Shown one piece after another: positions 52,557 to 62,674 of a stretch of 64,000 nt of DNA (position 1 is the first letter of the stretch; each line of letters opens with the position of its first letter). This stretch comes from Streptomyces europaeiscabiei (GTDB taxonomy: Bacteria > Actinomycetota > Actinomycetes > Streptomycetales > Streptomycetaceae): NCBI RefSeq assembly GCF_036346855.1, contig NZ_CP107841.1, positions 2,670,001 through 2,734,000 of the forward strand, read 5' to 3'. The position numbers and the translations under genes were made by a program. The notes under the pieces were generated by a model, which saw only the letters and a program-made list of their open reading frames with translations, did not search any database and had not been told where the DNA came from.

Positions 52557-53285
52557 TCATACGGCCGCTCCGATCAGGCTGCCCAGGGCGTACGTCACAC
52601 CCGCCGCGGCGCCACCGAGGGCGAGCTGCCGCAGCCCGCTGAACCACCAGCTCCTGGCCGTCACCCTGGCCACCACCGCCCCGCACCCGAAGAGCCCCGC
52701 GAGCGCCACCAGCACGGCGGGCCACAGCGTGCCCGCGCCGAGCAGGTAGGGCAGTACGGGCAGCAGGGCGCCCAGCGCGAAGGAGCCGAAGCTCGACACG
52801 GCGGCGACGACGGGCGAGGGAAGGTCGCCGGGATCGATGCCCAGTTCCTCGCGGGCGTGGATCTCCAGGGCCTGCTCCGGGTCGTGCGACAGCTGCCGCG
52901 CGACCTCCCGGGCGAGCCCCGCCTCGACCCCACGGGTCTCGTAGAGCGCGGCCAGCTCCTTCTCCTCGTCCTTGGGGTGCTTGCGCAACTCCCGCCGCTC
53001 GACGTCGAGTTCGGCCTCGACGAGTTCTCGCTGCGAGGCCACGGAGGTGTATTCGCCGGCGGCCATGGAGAAGGCTCCGGCCGCGAGACCTGCGAGCCCG
53101 GCGACGACGACCGCATCCCGGCCGGCCGACCCGCCCGCGACACCGGTCATCAGCGCCAGGTTGGACACGAGTCCGTCCATCGCCCCGAACACGGCAGGCC
53201 GCAGCCAGCCGCCGTTCACGTCCCGGTGGGTGTGGTTGTCGCGGTGCGCCTCGTGCAGCGCGGCTTCGGTGTCGATGATCGCCAC
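52557..53285 (-). CDS. VIT1/CCC1-type transporter
   Basis: This 242-residue protein has the VIT1/CCC1 layout: a short soluble N-terminus (HRDNHTHRDVNGGWLRPAVFGAMDGLVSNLALMTGVAGG) and two membrane segments. A hydrophilic Glu-rich cytoplasmic insert follows (residues about 75-145, including EYTSVASQRELVEAELDVERREL), then three C-terminal membrane segments. Homologues export or store Fe2+/Mn2+. GTG 53285 follows AAAGGGG. Confidence 0.88.
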   Translation of the reverse strand: MAIIDTEAALHEAHRDNHTHRDVNGGWLRPAVFGAMDGLVSNLALMTGVAGGSAGRDAVVVAGLAGLAAGAFSMAAGEYTSVASQRELVEAELDVERRELRKHPKDEEKELAALYETRGVEAGLAREVARQLSHDPEQALEIHAREELGIDPGDLPSPVVAAVSSFGSFALGALLPVLPYLLGAGTLWPAVLVALAGLFGCGAVVARVTARSWWFSGLRQLALGGAAAGVTYALGSLIGAAV

Positions 53286-53570
53286 GGTCAAGCCCCTTTC
53301 CTCGCATCGAACGTACGCTCGGAAAATTGCTTCTGCCAGCAAGGAAGGCCGTACTTACCAGGGGCCGCAACTGTTCGAGAAACCGTTGCCGCTCATTCGT
53401 ACACGGCTCTGCACAGATGTCGACCGGGTGATACAGCGGCGTTCCGGGGGCCGTCGGGGCACCCGATGTGGCAGAGATCTTCACAGCGAAATCTTCGACG
53501 TCGCGAAATCTTCGGAGCGGATCAACTGCCCGTAGGGCCAGACCTGCCCACCGGGCCAGAGAGGCGCCAT

Positions 53571-54677
53571 ATGCCTTCCATCGCCTGCATTCCTTCGGTC
53601 CCGGCGCCCGGGGACGCCGCCGCTCTCCGCGAGCGGGCGCGGGGGGCCATGCTCGGGCTCGCCGTCGGGGACGCGCTGGGGGCGCCCGCCGAGAACATGA
53701 AACCCTCCGAGATCCGCGCACGCTGGGGGCGCATCACGGGGTACGTGGCCGAACACCCCTCGGGCACGGACGACACCGAGTACGCCATCTTCTCCGGGCT
53801 GCTGCTGGCCCGGCACGGCTCGGCGCTCACCGTCACGCATGTGGAGACGGCCTGGCACCAGTGGATCGCGGACCGGGACGAGGGCCCGTTCCGGGGCGCC
53901 GGCTTCAGCGAACGCGGCACCCTGGAGAACCTCCGCCGGGGCCTGGCCGCGCCGATCTCCGCGCAGCACCGGCACGCCTGGAGCGACGGCCTGGCCATGC
54001 GCGCGGCCCCCTTCGGCGTCTTCGCCGCGGGCCGCCCGGCGGAGGCCGCCCGTCTGGTCGCCATCGACGGCTCGGTCAGCCACGAAGGCGAGGGCATCTA
54101 CGGCGGCCAGGCGGTCGCGGCGGGAGTGGCGGCGGCGATGGGGGGCGCCCCCACGATCGCCGTGGTCGCCTCCGCCCTCGCCGTGGTCCCCGACGACTCC
54201 TGGACGGCCCGCTCCCTGCGCCGGGCGGTGGCGATCGCCCACCGCGGCGAACGCGCGGTCCGTTCCGCGGTCGTCATCGGCGGCTACCCCTGGACCGACC
54301 TCGCCCCCGAAGCCGTCGCCCTCGCCTTCGGCGCCTACGCGGCGGCCGACGGCGACTTCACCGAGTCGGTGCTGACGGCGGTGAACATGGGCCGCGACGC
54401 CGACACGACCGCCGCCGTCGCCGGCGCCCTGGCCGGCGCGACCCGGGGCGCGTCCTCGATCCCGCCCGAGTGGGCCACCGCCATCGGCCCGGCGAGGGGC
54501 AGCTGCCTCCCCTCCATGGCAGGCCACCACGTCCTCGACGTGGCCGAGCTCCTGGTCCCCGGCGAGGGCGGCAAATGGGGCACCACCACGACCCCCCTCC
54601 ACCGCGAGGAGCGGCCCTGCCCACCTCCGACCGCCTTCACCCTGGCCCCACCCACCAAGACGGAGACCCCCTCATGA
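53571..54677 (+). CDS. ADP-ribosylglycohydrolase family protein 1 (site intact)
   Basis: The 368-residue protein belongs to the ARH/DraG fold, whose members remove ADP-ribose from proteins or small molecules using two Mg2+ ions. All metal-site motifs are present: GLAVGDALGAPAE (29-41), TDDT (66-69) and GRDADT (residues 274-279). It starts at ATG 53571 after AGAGG. It leads a six-gene run in which the stop of this gene overlaps the next start (ATGA). The C-terminal 30 residues are Thr/Pro-rich and dispensable-looking. Confidence 0.88.
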   Translation: MPSIACIPSVPAPGDAAALRERARGAMLGLAVGDALGAPAENMKPSEIRARWGRITGYVAEHPSGTDDTEYAIFSGLLLARHGSALTVTHVETAWHQWIADRDEGPFRGAGFSERGTLENLRRGLAAPISAQHRHAWSDGLAMRAAPFGVFAAGRPAEAARLVAIDGSVSHEGEGIYGGQAVAAGVAAAMGGAPTIAVVASALAVVPDDSWTARSLRRAVAIAHRGERAVRSAVVIGGYPWTDLAPEAVALAFGAYAAADGDFTESVLTAVNMGRDADTTAAVAGALAGATRGASSIPPEWATAIGPARGSCLPSMAGHHVLDVAELLVPGEGGKWGTTTTPLHREERPCPPPTAFTLAPPTKTETPS

Positions 54678-56425
54678 CCCCACCACCACCGTGGGACGAA
54701 ACCACACCCGCCGGGCCATCGAAGCCGGGCGACGGGGCTTCGCATTCGGCAGCACCCGGGCCGTACGACGGGACGACCCGTACGGCAACACCGGCACCGT
54801 GTGGCGAGACAGCGCGCGCGGCGACACCCGGACCGGTCGACGACACCACGCCCACCTCGTGGACGGTGGCGAACACATCCGGCGGGAACGGACTCGCTGT
54901 CACGGCGAAGCCGGTCGAAGCCGTGCACCTGGTCGCGGCGAACCCGGTCGAAGCCGAACTCACGGACACGGCCAACCCCATCGAAGCCACGCACACAGTC
55001 GCGGCCAACCCGATCGAAGCCGAACTCACGGACACGGCCAACCCCATCGAAGCCACGCACACAGTCGCGGCGAAGCCGATCGACCTCGACCCCGGGGTCG
55101 TGGCGAAGCCGTCCGGAACCGCACCCACGGTCGTGACGAGGCCGATCACCCCCGCACCCGCACCCGCAGTCGCCGACGCCGACGCCGACGACGACGGCCC
55201 ACCGGGGCCACCCGCACCCGACGACGAAAGCCGCACGGGCGGTGCGGGTGGGAACAAGCCGGCCGAAGGCGAAGCCGAGGCGGGCCGGGCGGCGTACCCC
55301 CCGGAGGGCCACCGCATCGAGGGCCTCCTGCTGGGCCTGGCCGCGGGCGACGCCGCCGGCTGGCCCGCAGCCCGCCACCGAGCCGCCCGCATGCCGGAGT
55401 GGACCCGCCGCCTGACCCGCGAACTGGACACCTTCGCCGAGCAGAACGCCACCACCACACTCCCGGTCCCCATCGCCCTCAACCAACCACCCGAACCCCT
55501 CCGCCTCGGCCCCTCCGACGACGCGGAATGGGCCGCGTTCGCCGCCGAGGCCCTCCTCCGTGCCGGTGACGCTGCCGCCTTGGGCGACCTCAGCCTGGAA
55601 CGCCGCACCCGCGCCTCGATCGACCTCTCCTGGAACGCCGTGGCCAGCGAGATCGCCGCCGCCGCCGAACGCGCCCCCGAGGTCGAGTCCGCCGTACTCC
55701 CCCTGCGCGCCCGCATCTCCGTACGCGCCGGACTCGGCAACCTCGCCACCGGCCTGCGCCCACCCGCCACCGGCCACGACAACCCCCACTACTTCGACGA
55801 CGCGGCCTGCGTACGCGCCTGCGTGCTCGCCGTGGCCCACCCGGGCGACCCTCGCCGCGCCGCCGATCTCGCCGAGTTCGACGCCCGCTACACCCAGGAC
55901 GGCGACGGCGTGCACGGCGCCCGCGCGATGGCCGCCGCGCTCGCCCTCGCGCTCGTCGGCGCGAACGTCGACGACTGCACGGCAGCCGCCCTCGCCGAAC
56001 TTCCCGCCGAGACGGAGATCGGCCGCAACGCCCGCCACGCCCTGGATCTCGCCCACCGCCACAAAAAAGAAGGAACATTCGCTCTGGTCCCGCTCCTGGA
56101 GCACCAGATCGTCGACCACGTCTACAGCTACGGCATCGCCGCCGCCGAGACCGTCCCCGTGGCGCTCGCCCTGGCCACCGCCGCCGAGGGCCGGATCGCC
56201 GAGGCCGTCCCCGCCGCCGCCTGCCTCTCCCGCGTCGCCGACTCCGCCCCGGCCCTCGCCGGCGCCCTCACCGGCGCGCTCAGCGGCGCCGCCGCCATCC
56301 CCGACACCTGGCGGGAAGCCTGCCGCACCCTCTCCGGCTGCGCACTCCCCCGCCTCACCGGCACCGATCTCGTACACCTCGCCGAACTTCTCGCAGCCAC
56401 GGAACTCGGCACTCCAGGAGGATGA
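54674..56425 (+). CDS. ADP-ribosylglycohydrolase family protein 2 (degenerate site, repeat-bearing N-terminus)
   Basis: The 583-residue protein has about 210 low-complexity N-terminal residues, rich in Thr, Pro, Ala and Glu. These include two near-identical 22-residue units (AANPIEAELTDTANPIEATH plus TV, residues 88-131). An ARH-like domain follows (EGLLLGLAAGDAAGW, about 216-230). Expected metal motifs are altered: SDDA (281-284) in place of TDDT and SRVADS in place of GRDADT, losing one Asp. It is probably non-catalytic or modified in chemistry, perhaps a partner of the other paralogues. Confidence 0.8.
   Translation: MTPPPPWDETTPAGPSKPGDGASHSAAPGPYDGTTRTATPAPCGETARAATPGPVDDTTPTSWTVANTSGGNGLAVTAKPVEAVHLVAANPVEAELTDTANPIEATHTVAANPIEAELTDTANPIEATHTVAAKPIDLDPGVVAKPSGTAPTVVTRPITPAPAPAVADADADDDGPPGPPAPDDESRTGGAGGNKPAEGEAEAGRAAYPPEGHRIEGLLLGLAAGDAAGWPAARHRAARMPEWTRRLTRELDTFAEQNATTTLPVPIALNQPPEPLRLGPSDDAEWAAFAAEALLRAGDAAALGDLSLERRTRASIDLSWNAVASEIAAAAERAPEVESAVLPLRARISVRAGLGNLATGLRPPATGHDNPHYFDDAACVRACVLAVAHPGDPRRAADLAEFDARYTQDGDGVHGARAMAAALALALVGANVDDCTAAALAELPAETEIGRNARHALDLAHRHKKEGTFALVPLLEHQIVDHVYSYGIAAAETVPVALALATAAEGRIAEAVPAAACLSRVADSAPALAGALTGALSGAAAIPDTWREACRTLSGCALPRLTGTDLVHLAELLAATELGTPGG
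54935..55066. repeat. Two near-perfect 66-bp tandem coding repeats
   Basis: Two head-to-tail 66-bp units encode the duplicated 22-residue segment of ADP-ribosylglycohydrolase-like protein 2. Related shorter motifs (AKPVEAVHLVA before, AKPIDLDPGVVAKP after) extend the pattern in degenerate form. Confidence 0.85.
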
Positions 56426-56432
56426 TTCGGGC

Positions 56433-57641
56433 ATGACGTCCCCAATGGATCCCAACCCGCACGCAATGCCCCATGCCGGAGCAGGCGTTGCGGCGAACGC
56501 CGCGGCAAGCCTCGAAGAGCGCATCACCGGCGCCCTGGTCGGCGCCGCCGTAGGCGACGCCCTCGGCGGCCCGGTCGAGGGCTACACCCCGGAGCAGATC
56601 CTCGAACGCCACGGCGGCCGCGTCCACGGCATCGTCGGCCCCTGGAACGGCGACGGCTGGCGCACCGCCCGCCCCATCGCGCCGTACCACAAGGGCGACG
56701 GCCACGTCACCGACGACACCTTGATGACCCACGCGCTCGTGCGGGTGTACGACCGCGTACGCGACCACCTTGACGCGTACGCCATCGCCGAGCACCTGGT
56801 GCCGGACATGATGACGACCCCGCGCTGGATCCCCGAGCTGGAGGCGGAGGCCCTCCCCCTCCAACGGGTCTTCCTCGCCGAGAAGTGGCTCGTGGCCCGC
56901 ATCCACTACGGCCACATCGACCCCCGAGAGGCCGGCACCGGCAACATCGTCAACTGCGGCGCCGCGATGTACATGGCCCCCGTCGGCCTGGTCAACGCGG
57001 CCGACCCGCCCGGTGCGTACGCCGAGGCCCTCGACATCGCGGGGGCCCACCAGTCGTCCTACGGCAGGGAGGCGGCGGGCGTGTTCGCGGCGGGGGTCGC
57101 GGCGGCGTGCACGCCGGGCGCGACCGCGGAGTCGGTGATCGAGACGTGCCTCGCCGTGGCCAAGGACGGCACCCGCGCGGCGATCGAGGCCGTGTGTGAA
57201 GTGGCCCGCCGCCACACGGACTTCGAGTCGGCGCTACGGCCGCTCCGCGAGGCGGTGACACCGTTCGACACGGTCGGCCCCGACTACCGCGCTCCCTCCC
57301 TCAACGCCCGCCGCCCCTCCCGCCTCCACGCGATCGAGGAACTCCCCATCGCCCTGGGCATGTTGCTCGTGGCGCGCGGCGACTACCGTCACGCGGTCCT
57401 GGGTTCGGTGAACTACGGCCGCGACTGCGACTCGATCGCCACGATGTCGGGAGCGCTGGCAGGGGCACTGGGCTCGCAGGTCCCGTCCGACTGGGCCAAG
57501 ACGGTCGCGGAGGCCAGCCGCCTGGACCTGCACGCCCCCGCCACGGCCCTGACGGCGGTCACCCTCCAGATCCACGCCCAGGACCTGCACCGCCGCCGCG
57601 CCCACGAGGCCGCCCTCGCCACCCTGGCCCCCCTCCGGTGA
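56433..57641 (+). CDS. ADP-ribosylglycohydrolase family protein 3 (site intact)
   Basis: The 402-residue protein has a full ARH site: GALVGAAVGDALGGPVEG (33-50), TDDT (93-96) and GRDCDS (329-334). A conserved central helix region is visible (NIVNCGAAMYMAPVGLVNAADP). ATG 56433 lies 7 bp after the previous stop; GGAGG is about 13 nt upstream. The end overlaps the next gene by GTGA. It is the second of the two paralogues that look fully catalytic. Confidence 0.88.
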   Translation: MTSPMDPNPHAMPHAGAGVAANAAASLEERITGALVGAAVGDALGGPVEGYTPEQILERHGGRVHGIVGPWNGDGWRTARPIAPYHKGDGHVTDDTLMTHALVRVYDRVRDHLDAYAIAEHLVPDMMTTPRWIPELEAEALPLQRVFLAEKWLVARIHYGHIDPREAGTGNIVNCGAAMYMAPVGLVNAADPPGAYAEALDIAGAHQSSYGREAAGVFAAGVAAACTPGATAESVIETCLAVAKDGTRAAIEAVCEVARRHTDFESALRPLREAVTPFDTVGPDYRAPSLNARRPSRLHAIEELPIALGMLLVARGDYRHAVLGSVNYGRDCDSIATMSGALAGALGSQVPSDWAKTVAEASRLDLHAPATALTAVTLQIHAQDLHRRRAHEAALATLAPLR

Positions 57642-59140
57642 CCCCCCTCCGACTCACCTGGGTCCAACCGGAAGACCTCCTGGGCCACGAACTCCACCAG
57701 GCGGTCCAGGACGGTCGCGAGCCGTCGGCCATCGCCGCCCGCTGGCGAGGAGCGGGCGGCCCCCCGGCCCCGCCCCGCGCCGGCGCATCCCCGCATCGGA
57801 CGTCCCGCTACTTGCGCCAACTCGCCGAGGACCTGCTGGACGAACTGGCAGACCTACCCAGCAGCTTGGCGGAACACGAGCCGACCGAGCTGAGCAGGAT
57901 CAAGGCGTTGTGCCCGGACTGGCCGATGCGTCCGGCCGAGCCCACCGGTCCTGCTGGGCCGCCCCGTCCCGGCCACTCCACCCACCCCGCTCAGCCTGCG
58001 GGCAGTCGTGCCGCCGGGGCGGCACGGGTGGGCGCAGGCGGCACCCTGCAGGCGCAGGCCCGCGACACCCTCCCCACCCCGGCCACGTACACGCGGCGAC
58101 TGGAGGCGGCCTGGCTCGGCCGCGCCGTCGGCTGCCTCCTCGGCAAACCCGTCGAGAAACTCCCCCTCCCCGCGATCCGCCAACTCGCCCGGGCCACCGG
58201 CAACTGGCCCCTCACCACCTGGTTCACCGCCCGTGGCGTCCCCCCGGAACTCCTCGCCGCCCACCCCTGGAACCGCCGTTCGGCCCCCACCTCCCTCGCC
58301 GAGAACATCGACGGCATGCCCGAGGACGACGATCTCAACTACCCCCTCCTCAACCTCCTCCTGCTCGCCCGCCACGGCCGCGACTTCACCACCACGGACG
58401 TGGCACGGCTCTGGCTCGACGAACTCCCCGCAGGCCGCACCTTCACCGCCGAACGCATCGCCTACCGCAACCTCCTCACCGGCATCGACCCCCCGCACAC
58501 AGCCCGCCACCGCAACCCGTTCCGCGAATGGATCGGCGCCCTGATCCGCGCCGACGTCCATGGCTGGACCAACCCCGGCGACCCGGCCACCGCGGCCGAA
58601 CAGGCCCACCGCGACGCCGCCCTCACCCACACCGCGAACGGCGTCTACGCGGCGATGTTCGTCGCGGCCACCATCGCGGAGGCGGCCACCGGCACCCACG
58701 ACGTCCACCACTGCCTGCGCACCGGCCTCAAGGTCGTCCCCCCGGACTCCCGTCTGGCGAAGGCGATCGACCACGCCCTCCGACTCGCCACGGGCGAGCG
58801 CGACTTCGACACGGTCGTCGACGAACTCCACTCCACCTACGCCGACCACCACTGGGTGCACGCCCTCCCCAACACGGCCCTGCTCACCGCCGCACTCACC
58901 CATGCGGACGGCGACTTCACGGCCTCCGTCTGCCGCGCGGTGTCGGGCGGTTGGGACACCGACTCCAACGGCGCGACGGCGGGCAGCATCGCCGGCCTCC
59001 TGACCGGCTCCCCGGACGCCCTCCCCGACCGCTGGACGGCCCCCCTCAAGAACCGCCTGGCCACCTCGGTCGCCGACTTCAACGGCGTCGGCTTCGACAC
59101 CCTGGCCCACCTCACCCTCCGGGAGACCCCCCACCCATGA
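57638..59140 (+). CDS. ADP-ribosylglycohydrolase family protein 4 (altered first motif)
   Basis: The 500-residue protein starts at GTG 57638, overlapping the previous stop by 4 nt. An N-terminal region of about 150 residues has a helical part (HELHQAVQDGREPSAIAARW) and a Pro/Gly linker. The ARH domain follows: GRAVGCLLGKPVEKLPL (161-177, Cys in place of the usual Asp), EDDD (229-232) and WDTDS (439-443). The Asp-rich C-terminal motif is intact, so metal binding is likely but the first motif is changed. Confidence 0.85.
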   Translation: MTPLRLTWVQPEDLLGHELHQAVQDGREPSAIAARWRGAGGPPAPPRAGASPHRTSRYLRQLAEDLLDELADLPSSLAEHEPTELSRIKALCPDWPMRPAEPTGPAGPPRPGHSTHPAQPAGSRAAGAARVGAGGTLQAQARDTLPTPATYTRRLEAAWLGRAVGCLLGKPVEKLPLPAIRQLARATGNWPLTTWFTARGVPPELLAAHPWNRRSAPTSLAENIDGMPEDDDLNYPLLNLLLLARHGRDFTTTDVARLWLDELPAGRTFTAERIAYRNLLTGIDPPHTARHRNPFREWIGALIRADVHGWTNPGDPATAAEQAHRDAALTHTANGVYAAMFVAATIAEAATGTHDVHHCLRTGLKVVPPDSRLAKAIDHALRLATGERDFDTVVDELHSTYADHHWVHALPNTALLTAALTHADGDFTASVCRAVSGGWDTDSNGATAGSIAGLLTGSPDALPDRWTAPLKNRLATSVADFNGVGFDTLAHLTLRETPHP

Positions 59141-60336
59141 CCCAGGCGTACGACCCCCCGCTCTCCCACCTCCGCGTGCTCGACCTCGCCACTCTCTTCG
59201 CCGGCCCCCTCGCCGCCACGATGCTCGGCGACTTCGGCGCGGAGGTCATCAAGATCGAACACCCCACGAAGCCGGACCCGTCCCGTGGCCACGGCCCGTC
59301 GAAGAACGGCGTGGGCCTGTGGTGGAAACTGCTGGGCCGCAACAAGCGCACCCTGACGCTGAACCTCTCCACCCCCGGCGGCCGGGACACGCTCCTGCGC
59401 CTCGCCGCCACCGCCGACGTGATCATCGAGAACTTCCGCCCCGGCACCCTGGAGAAATGGGGCCTGGGCTGGAAGGAACTCTCCGCCGCGAACCCCCGTC
59501 TGGTCCTCGCCCGCGTCACCGGCTTCGGCCAGTTCGGCCCGTACGCGCACCGCCCCGGCTTCGGCACGCTGGCCGAGGCGATGAGCGGCTTCGCCGCGAT
59601 CACCGGCGAGCCGGACGCCCCTCCTGTCCTGCCCCCCTTCGGCCTGGCCGACTCGATCGCGGGCCTGGCGACGGCATACGCGGTGATGACCGCACTCGCC
59701 GCGCGTGACCGGACGGGCGAAGGGCAGACGGTCGACATGGCGATCATCGAGCCGATCCTCACCGTCCTCGGTCCCCAACCCCTCTGGTACGACCAGCTCG
59801 GCCACGTCCAGCCCCGTACCGGCAACCGCTCCGCCAACAACGCGCCCCGCAACACCTATCGCACGGCGGACGGTACATGGGTGGCCGTCTCCACCTCGGC
59901 CCAGTCGATCGCGGAGCGGGTGATGCGCCTGGTCGGCCGCCCCGAGCTGATCGACGAGCCCTGGTTCGGCTCAGGCGCGGAACGGGCCCGTCACGCCGAC
60001 GTCCTGGACGAGGCCGTCGGCGCGTGGATCGCCCGCCACACCCGCGAGGAGGTCATCGAGGTGTTCGAGAAGGCGGAGGCGGCGGTGGCCCCCATCCAGG
60101 ACGTACGGGAGGTGATGACCGACCCCCAGTACCGGGCCCTGGACACGATCACGACCGTCGACGACCCCGACCTCGGCCCCCTGCGTATGCAGAACGTCCT
60201 CTTCCGCCTCTCCGCCACCCCCGGCGCGATCCGCTGGGCGGGCCGCGCACACGGCGCCGACACGGACTCGGTCCTCACCGAACTGGGCCTGTCGGAACCG
60301 GACATCGATGCCCTCCGCCAGGAGGGCGCCCTGTGA
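59137..60336 (+). CDS. CaiB/BaiF (class III) CoA-transferase
   Basis: This 399-residue enzyme has the CaiB/BaiF signature LDLATLFAGPLAATMLGDFGAEVIKIEHP. The segment holding the expected catalytic Asp is GEGQTVDMAIIEPIL, and the C-terminal half is DPQYRALDTITTVDDPDLGPLRMQNVLFRLS. It moves CoA between carboxylic acids. ATG 59137 overlaps the stop of ARH-like protein 4 (ATGA) and its own stop overlaps the lyase start, placing it firmly in the same operon. The acid substrates are unknown. Confidence 0.9.
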   Translation: MTQAYDPPLSHLRVLDLATLFAGPLAATMLGDFGAEVIKIEHPTKPDPSRGHGPSKNGVGLWWKLLGRNKRTLTLNLSTPGGRDTLLRLAATADVIIENFRPGTLEKWGLGWKELSAANPRLVLARVTGFGQFGPYAHRPGFGTLAEAMSGFAAITGEPDAPPVLPPFGLADSIAGLATAYAVMTALAARDRTGEGQTVDMAIIEPILTVLGPQPLWYDQLGHVQPRTGNRSANNAPRNTYRTADGTWVAVSTSAQSIAERVMRLVGRPELIDEPWFGSGAERARHADVLDEAVGAWIARHTREEVIEVFEKAEAAVAPIQDVREVMTDPQYRALDTITTVDDPDLGPLRMQNVLFRLSATPGAIRWAGRAHGADTDSVLTELGLSEPDIDALRQEGAL

Positions 60337-61187
60337 CCCCCGGTTCGACGACCCCCTTCCCCCTGACCTGGCTGTACGTCCCCGGCGACCGCCCGGAGGT
60401 GGTCACCAAGGCCCTGGCCTCCGGCGCGGACGTGGTGATCGTGGACCTGGAGGACGCGGTGGCGCCGAACCGCAAGGCCTACGCCCGCGCGGCGACCGCC
60501 GAACTCCTCTCGAGCCCGTCCACCGTCGCGGTTCACGTACGCGTGAACGCCCTGGGCACCCCGGAGGCCGAACAGGACCTCAAGACCCTCTCCTCTCTCC
60601 CCGGGCTGGCGGCCCTCCGCCTGCCGAAGATCACGTCCCCCGCCGACGTCGCCGGCGTAGCGGAAAGAACCGCCCCCGCGGAAGGAGGAGCGATCCCCCT
60701 GTACGCGCTCCTCGAATCGGCCCTGGGTGTGGAACGCGCCTACGACATCGCCACCGCCCATCCCGCCCTCCGCGGCATCGCGCTCGGCGAGGCTGACCTC
60801 CGCGCCGACCTGGCCGTCCGGCACGACTCGGCCCTCGACTGGCCCCGCTCCCGGGTGATCCTCGCCGCGCGCGCCGCGGGCCTCCCCTCACCGGCCCAGT
60901 CGATCTACCCGGACACGAAGGACCTCGAAGGGCTGGCCGCCTCCTGCGCCCACGGCCGCGCCCTCGGCTTCCTGGGCCGCGCCGCCATCCACCCTCGGCA
61001 GCTCCCGGTGATCGAACGCGCCTACGCCCCCACCCCGCGGGAAGTGGAATCGGCCGAGGAGACCCTCAAGGCCGCGACCACCGCGCCCGGCGCCCAGGCC
61101 CTCCCCGACGGCCGCTTCATCGACCCGGCCGTGGTGGCAGCCGCCCGCAGAACCCTCACCCTGGCCAACCGCCCCACCAGACGCTGA
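60333..61187 (+). CDS. CitE-like (HpcH/HpaI) CoA-ester lyase
   Basis: The 284-residue TIM-barrel lyase has LYVPGDRPEVVTKALASGADVVIVDLEDAV, PLYALLESALGVERAYDIA, IALGEADLRADLAV and QSIYPDTKDLEGLAASC, all CitE/malyl-CoA-lyase family markers. The acidic metal ligands (Glu and Asp) are retained. With the CoA-transferase it suggests activation of a hydroxy- or dicarboxylic acid followed by C-C cleavage, as for malyl- or citramalyl-CoA. GTG 60333 overlaps the upstream stop (GTGA). It is the last gene of the six-gene run. Confidence 0.9.
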   Translation: MTPGSTTPFPLTWLYVPGDRPEVVTKALASGADVVIVDLEDAVAPNRKAYARAATAELLSSPSTVAVHVRVNALGTPEAEQDLKTLSSLPGLAALRLPKITSPADVAGVAERTAPAEGGAIPLYALLESALGVERAYDIATAHPALRGIALGEADLRADLAVRHDSALDWPRSRVILAARAAGLPSPAQSIYPDTKDLEGLAASCAHGRALGFLGRAAIHPRQLPVIERAYAPTPREVESAEETLKAATTAPGAQALPDGRFIDPAVVAAARRTLTLANRPTRR

Positions 61188-61402: not shown

Positions 61403-61552
61403 ACCCCCCGCAGCCGCCCCACCGCCTCAGTCACCCCACCCCGCCCATCTCCCCGCCCACCCCGCAACCCAAAGACCCACCCGCCCGGAAGGGGCGGATG
61501 GGTGGGGAACATCCCTCGCGGCGCGGCGGATCACCGCAACCTAAGCGCCACG

Positions 61553-62548
61553 TCAGCTCTTCTCGGCGGACTCGGCCTTCTTCTCGACCACGGAGTCGGA
61601 GGCGGCATCCGCGTCCTTCTCCTTCTTCGCATCGGCCTCGCCCGAGGGCTCCGCGGACTCCGCGGACTCCGAGTCCTCGTCGTCCTTCTGCTCGCCCTTC
61701 TCCACGTCCGCAGCGGCAGGGTCCCCGTCGGAGACACCCGGCTCGACGACCTCTTCCCGCCCGGGCCGCTTCCGGGCCGACAGGACGATGTAGATCACGG
61801 CGAGGATGAAGACGAACAGCGCGGTCCAGTTGTTGAGGCGCAGCCCGAAGATGTGATGGGCCTCGTCGACCCGCATGTACTCGATCCAGAACCGCCCCAC
61901 GCAGTACGAGGCGACGTACAGCGCGAACGCCCGCCCGTGCCCGAGGTTGAAGCGACGGTCCGCCCAGATGACGAGGAGCGCGACACCGATGCACCACAGC
62001 GACTCGTAGAGGAAGGTCGGGTGGTACGTGCCCGGCAGCCGCCCGTCCGTGGAGGACGTGATCTCCACGGCCCACGGCACGTTCGTCTTCCTGCCGTACA
62101 GCTCCTGGTTGAACCAGTTGCCCCACCGCCCGATCGCCTGCGCGAGGGCGATGCCGGGCGCGACGGCGTCGGCCCAGGCGGGCAGCGGGATGCCACGCCG
62201 ACGGCAGCCGATCCACGCACCCACCGCGCCGAGGGCGATCGCGCCCCAGATGCCGAGCCCGCCCTCCCAGACCTTGAAGGCGTCGACCCAGTCACGGCCC
62301 TCGCTGAAGTACAGCTCGTAGTCCGTGATCACGTGGTAGAGCCGTCCGCCGACCAGGCCGAAGGGCACGGCCCAGACCGAGATGTCGGCGACCGTACCGG
62401 CCCGTCCGCCCCGCGCGACCCAGCGTTTGTTGCCGAGCCAGACGGCTACGAAGACACCGATGATGATGCAGAAGGCGTAGCCGCGCAGCGGGACGGGACC
62501 GAGGTACAGCACCCCGCGCGACGGGCTGGGAATGTAGGCAAGTTCCAT
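61553..62548 (-). CDS. lgt: Prolipoprotein diacylglyceryl transferase
   Basis: The 331-residue membrane enzyme attaches diacylglycerol to the lipobox Cys of prelipoproteins. About seven hydrophobic segments are visible, with the Lgt signature GRWGNWFNQELYG, the conserved HPTFLYES segment and a late YMRVDEAHHIFG stretch. The last roughly 65 residues form a highly charged Glu/Asp/Ala/Lys tail found in actinobacterial Lgt. ATG 62548 starts MELAYIPSPSRGVLYLGP; the longer upstream frame is rejected. Confidence 0.95.
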   Translation of the reverse strand: MELAYIPSPSRGVLYLGPVPLRGYAFCIIIGVFVAVWLGNKRWVARGGRAGTVADISVWAVPFGLVGGRLYHVITDYELYFSEGRDWVDAFKVWEGGLGIWGAIALGAVGAWIGCRRRGIPLPAWADAVAPGIALAQAIGRWGNWFNQELYGRKTNVPWAVEITSSTDGRLPGTYHPTFLYESLWCIGVALLVIWADRRFNLGHGRAFALYVASYCVGRFWIEYMRVDEAHHIFGLRLNNWTALFVFILAVIYIVLSARKRPGREEVVEPGVSDGDPAAADVEKGEQKDDEDSESAESAEPSGEADAKKEKDADAASDSVVEKKAESAEKS

Positions 62549-62674
62549 GGCAGGGTCGACGCTACCCTGCCGGGCCCGGCCGACGGCAGGCGGCCCGGCA
62601 ACGGGTCCATAACGCCGTACCACAACTGCCTTGACTCCTCAGGGCCCCCCGCAGCCCCTCGGCTCACACGCGAC

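Follow-up and report, generated by a model that had tools for sequence, protein, structure and literature searches.

Four ADP-ribosylglycohydrolase paralogues of Streptomyces share a conserved gene set with a CoA-transferase and a CitE-type lyase, probably a reduced catabolic operon for a ribosyl conjugate

A stretch of 64,000 nucleotides from Streptomyces europaeiscabiei (NZ_CP107841.1, positions 2,670,001 to 2,734,000; hereafter the window) contains six genes on the + strand, at window positions 53571-61187, that encode four ADP-ribosylglycohydrolases (ADP_ribosyl_GH; ARH1 to ARH4), a family III coenzyme A (CoA)-transferase (CaiB) and a CitE-type lyase. The best reading of this cluster is that it probably represents a catabolic operon for a ribosyl conjugate, meaning here a small molecule that links the anomeric carbon of ribose to a carboxylic acid or to a precursor of one. 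A catabolic route is proposed because genes for a ribokinase, a LacI repressor, a sugar ATP-binding cassette (ABC) importer, CaiB and CitE are linked to the ARH genes; the chemistry is inferred throughout. The source genome (10.95 Mb) is placed in Streptomyces by its relatives, its ARH4 shares 98% identity with that of S. europaeiscabiei, and its cluster is a reduced version of the gene set seen in other genera, with no LacI, ABC importer or ribokinase among the cluster's genes in the list of open reading frames (ORFs) or by Pfam. A first-pass annotation of the window described the same six-gene set, in agreement with our coordinates and Pfam assignments, and offered a catabolic route as one of two options. 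That option gains support from genes of the set that occur elsewhere and were missed from the window alone, namely a ribokinase in 40 of 79 Streptomyces loci, and LacI and a sugar ABC importer on the same strand in other genera.

In its full form, the operon of other genera consists of lacI, two sugar ABC permease genes, a sugar-binding lipoprotein gene, ARH1-4, and genes for ribokinase, the CoA-transferase and the lyase. ARH3 was detected in 40/150 Streptomycetaceae genomes, belonging to 3/17 genera. All loci of the two genera other than Streptomyces were fetched (g124, n=11; g134, n=1) and 20 kb of each was read. All 12 encode ARH1-4, CaiB and CitE, preceded on the same strand by LacI, two permeases and the sugar-binding protein, and no gltB or lgt match lies within the 20 kb. 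The set is kept at different sites, in the gltB-lgt interval in Streptomyces and elsewhere in g124 (11/11) and g134 (1/1). By tblastn, LacI, two permeases and the binding protein adjoin the ARHs in 25 fetched loci (12 from g124/g134, eight from family f64, four from f62 and one from f79), and 22 fetched loci of other genera combine these genes with a ribokinase match. The ribokinase gene lies between ARH4 and CaiB in 11/11 g124, 8/8 f64 and 2/4 f62 loci and in the f60 locus; L102, counted among the 22, has none in this slot and carries a more distant ribokinase-like gene apart, upstream of LacI. Pfam identified SBP_bac_1, BPD_transp_1 (twice) and LacI domains in L111 and L102. The best NCBIfam model for the L111 LacI is RbsR (200.1 of 382 bits), and the best solved relatives of the SBP_bac_1 binding protein are oligosaccharide- and maltose-type proteins. 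LacI, ABC and kinase genes beside hydrolases, as in a catabolic sugar operon, are found in other genera and not in the window. Separately, four f64 loci (L131:2708-4624, -; L136:15030-17033, +; similar ORFs in L129 and L133) encode an extra protein of ~640-690 aa between ribokinase and CaiB, which in the two tested combines a C-terminal FGE-sulfatase domain with an N-terminal part that has no assignment.

Linkage of the CoA genes to the ARHs was assessed among 197 sampled Actinomycetes genomes. An ARH3 orthologue (bar, E 1e-40) was found in 34, with one match each at E 1e-193 or better. CaiB and CitE orthologues, located by the coordinates of their matches, lie within ~10 kb of ARH3 in 32 of these 34 (Streptomyces 14/14, f64 14/14, f62 2/4, f60 1/1, f79 1/1); in the two misses, G409 and G400, ARH3 is on a short contig, which in G409 ends inside ARH4. 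Among 198 genomes sampled phylum-wide, ARH3 occurs in seven, all of the window's genus. Twenty regions were also picked, in a biased choice, among the listed PF03747 matches of the 197 genomes. Twelve carry the set: ten as the complete run of eleven genes, one truncated at a contig end (L141) and one reordered (L145, f79) as CaiB-CitE-LacI-P1-P2-SBP-ARH3-ARH4-ARH1-ARH2. Across actinobacteria, where the first-pass annotation wanted conservation examined, the gene set is kept together over at least five families, and the routine separation of CoA genes from ARHs that it held up as contrary evidence was not seen. Chance adjacency is rejected by linkage in 32/34 genomes. The same linkage, with differing neighbourhoods and the reordered L145, also disfavours a second explanation, in which operon economy in Streptomyces has brought together two unrelated pathways, that of the four ARHs and that of the two CoA genes. 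Even with CaiB relatives that occur apart from ARH3, most with an adjoining CitE in the seven such loci read, and with seven further ARH matches elsewhere in the window genome, we regard operon economy as very improbable.

Within Streptomyces, the best 80 of 575 confirmed places in a scan with ARH4 were compared. Ribokinase disregarded, the full order gltB-, VIT-, ARH1-4+, CaiB+, CitE+, lgt- is found in 66/80; of the other 14, 13 are cut by contig ends and one (L017) lacks a VIT match. In the window, the six genes meet at five junctions, four of them start/stop overlaps of 4 nt and the fifth a gap of 7 bp, exactly as had been claimed: ATGA at ARH1/ARH2, a gap at 56426-56432 between ARH2 and ARH3, GTGA at ARH3/ARH4, ATGA at ARH4/CaiB and GTGA at CaiB/CitE. 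Counted permissively (any in-frame start codon allowed, paralogue cross-hits in cut contigs kept), a start/stop overlap is possible for CaiB/CitE in 77/79 loci, for ARH4/CaiB in 37/39 of those that lack ribokinase and for ARH1/ARH2 in 63/78. For ARH2/ARH3 it is possible in 43/79, with 32 more having a start within -30..+40, and for ARH3/ARH4 in just 7/79, with 72 more in that range.

The ARH4/CaiB overlap (59137-59140, +) is the site at which other loci carry ribokinase, a gene of ~0.9 kb present here in 40/79 Streptomyces loci (the 80th, L078, ends before CaiB) and absent from the window. The protein encoded at this site in one such locus (L050) scores above the cut-off of the ribokinase model TIGR02152 (315.6 vs 299.65 bits) and below that of a second one, PRK11142. 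No close copy was found elsewhere in the window genome, where the best match has 45% identity. When presence of ribokinase is mapped onto a quickly built gltB tree (75 rows), 10 changes are required, of which at least three are backed by well-supported branches. Because ribokinase is present in the other genera, repeated loss in Streptomyces would be likelier than repeated gain. In two Streptomyces genomes, G255 and G293 (L119:9415-10174 and L118:9200-9460), the match to ARH3/ARH4 or to ARH4 is only partial, which may mean operon decay.

The four hydrolases score above the curated PF03747 cut-off (124-198 against 26.2 bits) and account for four of the 11 PF03747 matches in a profile search of the window genome. 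ARH1 (53571-54677, +; 197.9 bits) and ARH3 (56433-57641, +; 163.0 bits) have complete metal motifs, GTDDTE with GRDADT and VTDDTL with GRDCDS, respectively. These are kept in all 12 aligned ARH1 rows, with a single change of the TDDT Thr to Ser in L145, and in 13/13 ARH3 rows. ARH4 (57638-59140, +; GTG start; 181.6 bits) has PEDDD where the others have TDDT, with GWDTDS intact. K-P-V-E, the three Asp (DDD) and D-T-D-S are invariant in 11/11 ARH4 rows, and because the altered motif is conserved, a variant active site is a better reading of it than a loss of the site; the same invariance led to rejection of the view that ARH4 is a dead paralogue. ARH2 (54674-56425, +; 124.2 bits), which has a long N-terminal extension, has PSDDAE as its second motif, and its last motif, RVADSA, has lost the first Asp. 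The first-pass annotation had correctly noted complete motifs in ARH1 and ARH3, a lost Asp in ARH2 and an altered first motif in ARH4. It did not record a further change in ARH2, the loss of the first-motif Glu (WPAARH). In the ARH2 alignment, from which L138 was left out as a split match, this Glu is absent in 11/11 rows and the leading Asp of the final motif in 10/10 rows covering the position; ARH2 thus falls short of the acidic metal motifs. By eye, the ARH2 extension contains imperfect direct repeats (window 54866-55160, NPIEATHTVAANPIEAELTDTA-like), possibly a linker.

In a tree of 54 ARH domains, 45 from the four groups and nine from other ARHs, each paralogue forms a supported clade (ARH1 99/92, ARH2 100/100, ARH3 100/99, ARH4 100/100), and five changes, the least possible, suffice for all six labels together. 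Thus, the paralogue phylogeny called for in the first-pass annotation yields four separate clades; several outside rows are long branches, and no branching order among the four is claimed. The ARH1 profile aligns with the structures of MJ1187, DraG and the known hydrolase ARH3, and ARH4 matches solved ARHs weakly in sequence. The predicted ARH4 model (mean predicted local distance difference test score 50.9, predicted template-modelling score 0.39) was too weak and was not used. For ARH2 (62.7 and 0.70 on the same scales), the top Foldseek matches are ARH3 and DraG structures (best E 2e-4, root-mean-square deviation near 10); this model supports the fold only, and no site geometry was taken from it.

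The other first-pass option was a multi-subunit hydrolase with non-catalytic partners. In its specific form, a single ARH hydrolase with ARH2, and perhaps ARH4, as non-catalytic subunits would act on a nucleoside-like or oligosaccharide substrate, and CaiB and CitE would be a side branch. The four ARHs do stay together, and ARH2 is degenerate in the aligned rows. Moreover, ARH1-like/ARH2-like pairs are adjacent in L132 and L154, clusters without ARH3. The first of these sister clusters (L132:1263-11528, genome G411) contains LacI, an ARH4-like gene, a probable binding protein, two permeases, a ribokinase-like gene and a divergent ARH1-like/ARH2-like pair; in L154 the pair adjoins LacI-like and permease-like genes. 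Since these pairs are adjacent there too, ARH2 accompanies ARH1, as is expected of a partner subunit. Because its motifs are degenerate and it adjoins ARH1 even in a sister cluster, ARH2 is probably a non-catalytic partner. The option is thus partly supported and is compatible with a catabolic route, with which the multi-subunit explanation overlaps in its first half. For ARH4 a variant active site is the better reading, and CaiB and CitE stay with the set where it has been relocated or its order changed. We therefore consider a multi-subunit hydrolase with CoA genes on a side branch distinctly unlikely. On one contig of genome G326 (L153:10097-12195 and L154:83-6439), a CaiB-CitE pair lies ~8 kb from the ARH1-like/ARH2-like pair, without ARH3. 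More distant Actinomycetes ARHs also occur near ribokinase-like and ABC permease matches (L137:3913-9983 and L147:9323-15233); given these neighbours, catabolic ARHs may be common.

The window CaiB (59137-60336, +; CoA_transf_3, PF02515, 412.6 bits) has an Asp, D200, that is invariant in 10/10 rows and whose role we take to be that known from formyl-CoA transferase. Its closest NCBIfam models are succinate-glutarate and formyl-CoA transferase, all below cut-off. The CitE/RipC-type C-C lyase (60333-61187, +; GTG start; HpcH_HpaI, PF03328, 128.9 bits) has R61, E119 and D146 invariant in 10/10 rows, presumably forming the metal/CoA site, and its closest models, RipC (149.9 vs a cut-off of 375 bits) and citE, are likewise unreached. 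ARH3-linked CaiB genes (n=32) score 700-792 bits, and the next 14 CaiB, without an adjoining ARH3, score 579-706, with a slight overlap between the unlinked CaiB of G355 (705.6) and the linked CaiB of G306 (700.2). Two of these 14 come from genomes that do have ARH3, G400 and G409. Thirteen of the 14 places were fetched (all except that of G321), and neighbours were read in seven. A gene for a DctM (tripartite ATP-independent periplasmic, TRAP)-type permease follows the CaiB-CitE pair in 3/7 (L153, L155 and L157; checked by Pfam in L157 and for the second such gene of L153, otherwise identified by resemblance). L153 also encodes an RraA-type protein, MmgE/PrpD and racemase genes lie near the pair in L150 (in L151 by resemblance only), and LIV-type ABC genes are also among the neighbours. 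These ARH3-less relatives look like organic-acid catabolism, and DctM beside CaiB-CitE fits action on a free organic acid. The neighbours suggest di- or tricarboxylate chemistry, for which malate, citramalate and itaconate-type acids are all possible. As candidates, ribosylated nicotinate and methanopterin-like compounds were set aside because no evidence pointed to them. At L149:14707-19489, about 3.5 kb separate a CaiB-CitE pair from a group of FAD (flavin adenine dinucleotide) monooxygenase, isochorismatase, phosphoenolpyruvate-mutase and arylmalonate decarboxylase/racemase-type genes that resembles a degradation cluster for an aromatic compound.

Taken as a catabolic operon, the complete gene set would act in five steps, for which the reactions and the substrate class are inferred from gene content. 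The conjugate would be imported by the ABC importer with its sugar-binding lipoprotein, under control of the RbsR-like LacI repressor. Its ribosyl bond would then be hydrolysed by the ARHs, of which ARH1, ARH3 and probably ARH4 are expected to be catalytic and ARH2 to be a non-catalytic partner of ARH1. Ribokinase would convert the ribose to ribose-5-phosphate, and the CaiB-type enzyme would move CoA onto the freed acid. Finally, the CitE-type enzyme would cleave a 3-hydroxyacyl-CoA to an acyl-CoA and a 2-oxo acid, with acetyl-CoA and either glyoxylate or pyruvate as default guesses. Streptomyces would have kept hydrolysis, CoA transfer and cleavage, with no importer or repressor in the cluster; having probably lost ribokinase several times, it presumably relies on its general ribokinase.

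By gene order, the same genes can be placed in Streptomyces coelicolor. Across the window and the stretch that follows it, eleven recognised genes lie between gltB and the trpX place: VIT, ARH1-4, CaiB, CitE, lgt, a DsbA-like gene, trpA and trpB; the VIT, lgt, DsbA and trp names are those we presume from sequence. In S. coelicolor, gltB is SCO2026 (PMC9282665) and trpX is SCO2038 (PMC5036795). Since the eleven tags between them equal the eleven genes in number, ARH1-4 would correspond to SCO2028-SCO2031, with ARH1 as SCO2028, ARH2 as SCO2029, ARH3 as SCO2030 and ARH4 as SCO2031. SCO2028-SCO2031 are listed among eight uncharacterised DraG/ARH homologues (PMC9411070), and three of them among seven (PMC5087735). 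Against one (PMC5087735) to three (PMC9411070) ADP-ribosyltransferases, these seven or eight homologues have been taken as a sign of lively ADP-ribosylation (PMC5087735, PMC9411070).

The literature reading, which counts SCO2028-SCO2031 among ADP-ribosyl hydrolases, is that the ARHs remove ADP-ribose from modified proteins, nucleic acids or an antibiotic, with the CoA genes as metabolic neighbours or consumers of the product. ARH1 and ARH3 do keep the DraG/ARH3 metal motifs, and at least one ADP-ribosyltransferase is described for S. coelicolor (PMC5087735). The window ARHs nevertheless stay below the NCBIfam equivalog cut-offs for DraG (best 82.1 vs 337.05 bits) and Tri1 (best 47.8 vs 490 bits), and their linkage, seen in several families, to genes for ribokinase, LacI, a sugar ABC importer, CaiB and CitE speaks against reversal. 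An ADP-ribose product would need a Nudix-type gene, and none was recognised in the loci read, in which no search was aimed at Nudix. Finally, purified SCO2028 and SCO2030, by order ARH1 and ARH3, the pair whose motifs are complete, showed no activity on uracil-linked ADP-ribose (U-alpha-ADPr; PMC13036486). This fits a ribosyl-conjugate function and neither proves nor disproves it. Reversal of ADP-ribosylation is weaker than the catabolic reading, and we judge it quite unlikely.

Several observations weigh against the catabolic reading. No particular acid can be named because the neighbours of the CaiB-CitE relatives vary and one of the seven ARH3-less loci (L152) has no tandem CitE. The L132 sister cluster has no ARH3, CaiB or CitE match, and an acid is therefore not necessarily part of the system's core. 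No ribokinase match was found by tblastn in the fetched L145 locus, and G400 (f62) has ARH1-4 and ABC genes with no ribokinase, CaiB or CitE match in the 1.85 kb from ARH4 to the contig end. The L050 ribokinase is below PRK11142 (269.3 vs 341), and the L102 kinase is below both TIGR02152 (231.1) and PRK11142 (188). ARH2 retains the second-motif DD in 10/11 rows (lost in L145) and, with partial motifs, might bind or act on something else. The U-alpha-ADPr result excludes one ADP-ribosyl substrate only. Furthermore, importer and repressor are absent from the Streptomyces loci read, and no close relative of the binding protein was found in the window genome, where the best-scoring one has 27% identity. 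These two points leave uptake in Streptomyces without an explanation, and the cluster may have changed its function there.

A bolder version of the catabolic reading, which we find possible and on balance unlikely, is that these ARH-fold proteins are a new class of small-molecule ribosidases, four proteins that act as a set, including their own non-catalytic partner, to degrade a ribosylated hydroxy-dicarboxylic acid. Because Streptomyces keeps hydrolases and CoA genes with no importer in the cluster, the conjugate would there be made inside the cell, implying a ribosyl-conjugation cycle, and about half of the supposed erasers would be unrelated to ADP-ribosylation.

More generally, if SCO2028-SCO2031, four of the eight, are catabolic, half of the ARH excess over ADP-ribosyltransferases vanishes, which may explain why Streptomyces seems to hold far more ADP-ribose erasers than writers. 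Null results with ADP-ribosyl probes would then be expected, the role of the ARH fold would widen from the removal of marks to the use of ribosyl compounds as food, and CoA-ester metabolism would gain a further point of entry. The sugar-binding protein and LacI repressor of the complete operon offer handles on the substrate via their ligands.

The operon is preceded by an intergenic region (53343-53570, +), presumed to hold its promoter, between ARH1 and a divergent membrane protein gene (ORF 52557-53342, -, from the ORF list, with its start at 53342), which we take to be VIT-like by sequence. A scan of this region for sigma-70-type promoters gave no match. Downstream is a convergent ORF (61553-62623, -) that we assume to be lgt-like. 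Terminator-like sites near 61.3-61.5 kb are weak evidence of an end; the inverted repeat at 61475-61503 (no strand assigned), between the operon and lgt, is weak and terminator-like on the - strand only.

Among the titles and abstract openings listed from an open-access collection, none describes an operon joining an ARH with ribokinase, PfkB, CoA-transferase, CitE, LacI or ABC genes. The nearest described arrangement is E. coli yegTUV, which encodes a nucleoside symporter, the ARH-family YegU and the sugar kinase YegV and is likewise an ARH with importer and sugar kinase under one repressor, GgaR (PMC10819704). It differs in having one ARH, a major facilitator superfamily symporter rather than an ABC importer and a GntR-type repressor, without CoA-transferase or lyase. 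The three genes, which that paper links to glycogen accumulation, have no clearly known function (PMC10819704). DraG, ARH1 and ARH3 hydrolases have family and metal motifs in common with the window ARHs, which differ in their catabolic gene context, degenerate ARH2, variant ARH4 motif and unreached DraG and Tri1 cut-offs. Itaconate degradation genes likewise place a CoA-transferase before a CitE-type lyase, and the best model for the window lyase is RipC, which we take, with the rip/ict naming, to be the citramalyl-CoA lyase (RipC/Ccl) of those genes. That system combines CoA-transferase, hydratase and citramalyl-CoA lyase, whereas the six window genes include no hydratase, the lyase stays below the RipC cut-off, and ARHs and (elsewhere) ribokinase are present; the window cluster is not assigned to itaconate degradation. 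The ribose operon rbs encodes RbsK, RbsR and RbsB, and the likeness to it lies in the RbsR-like LacI of L111 and in the L050 protein, which scores above TIGR02152 and below PRK11142. Here, in contrast, the binding protein is of the SBP_bac_1 rather than the RbsB type, and four ARHs accompany it.

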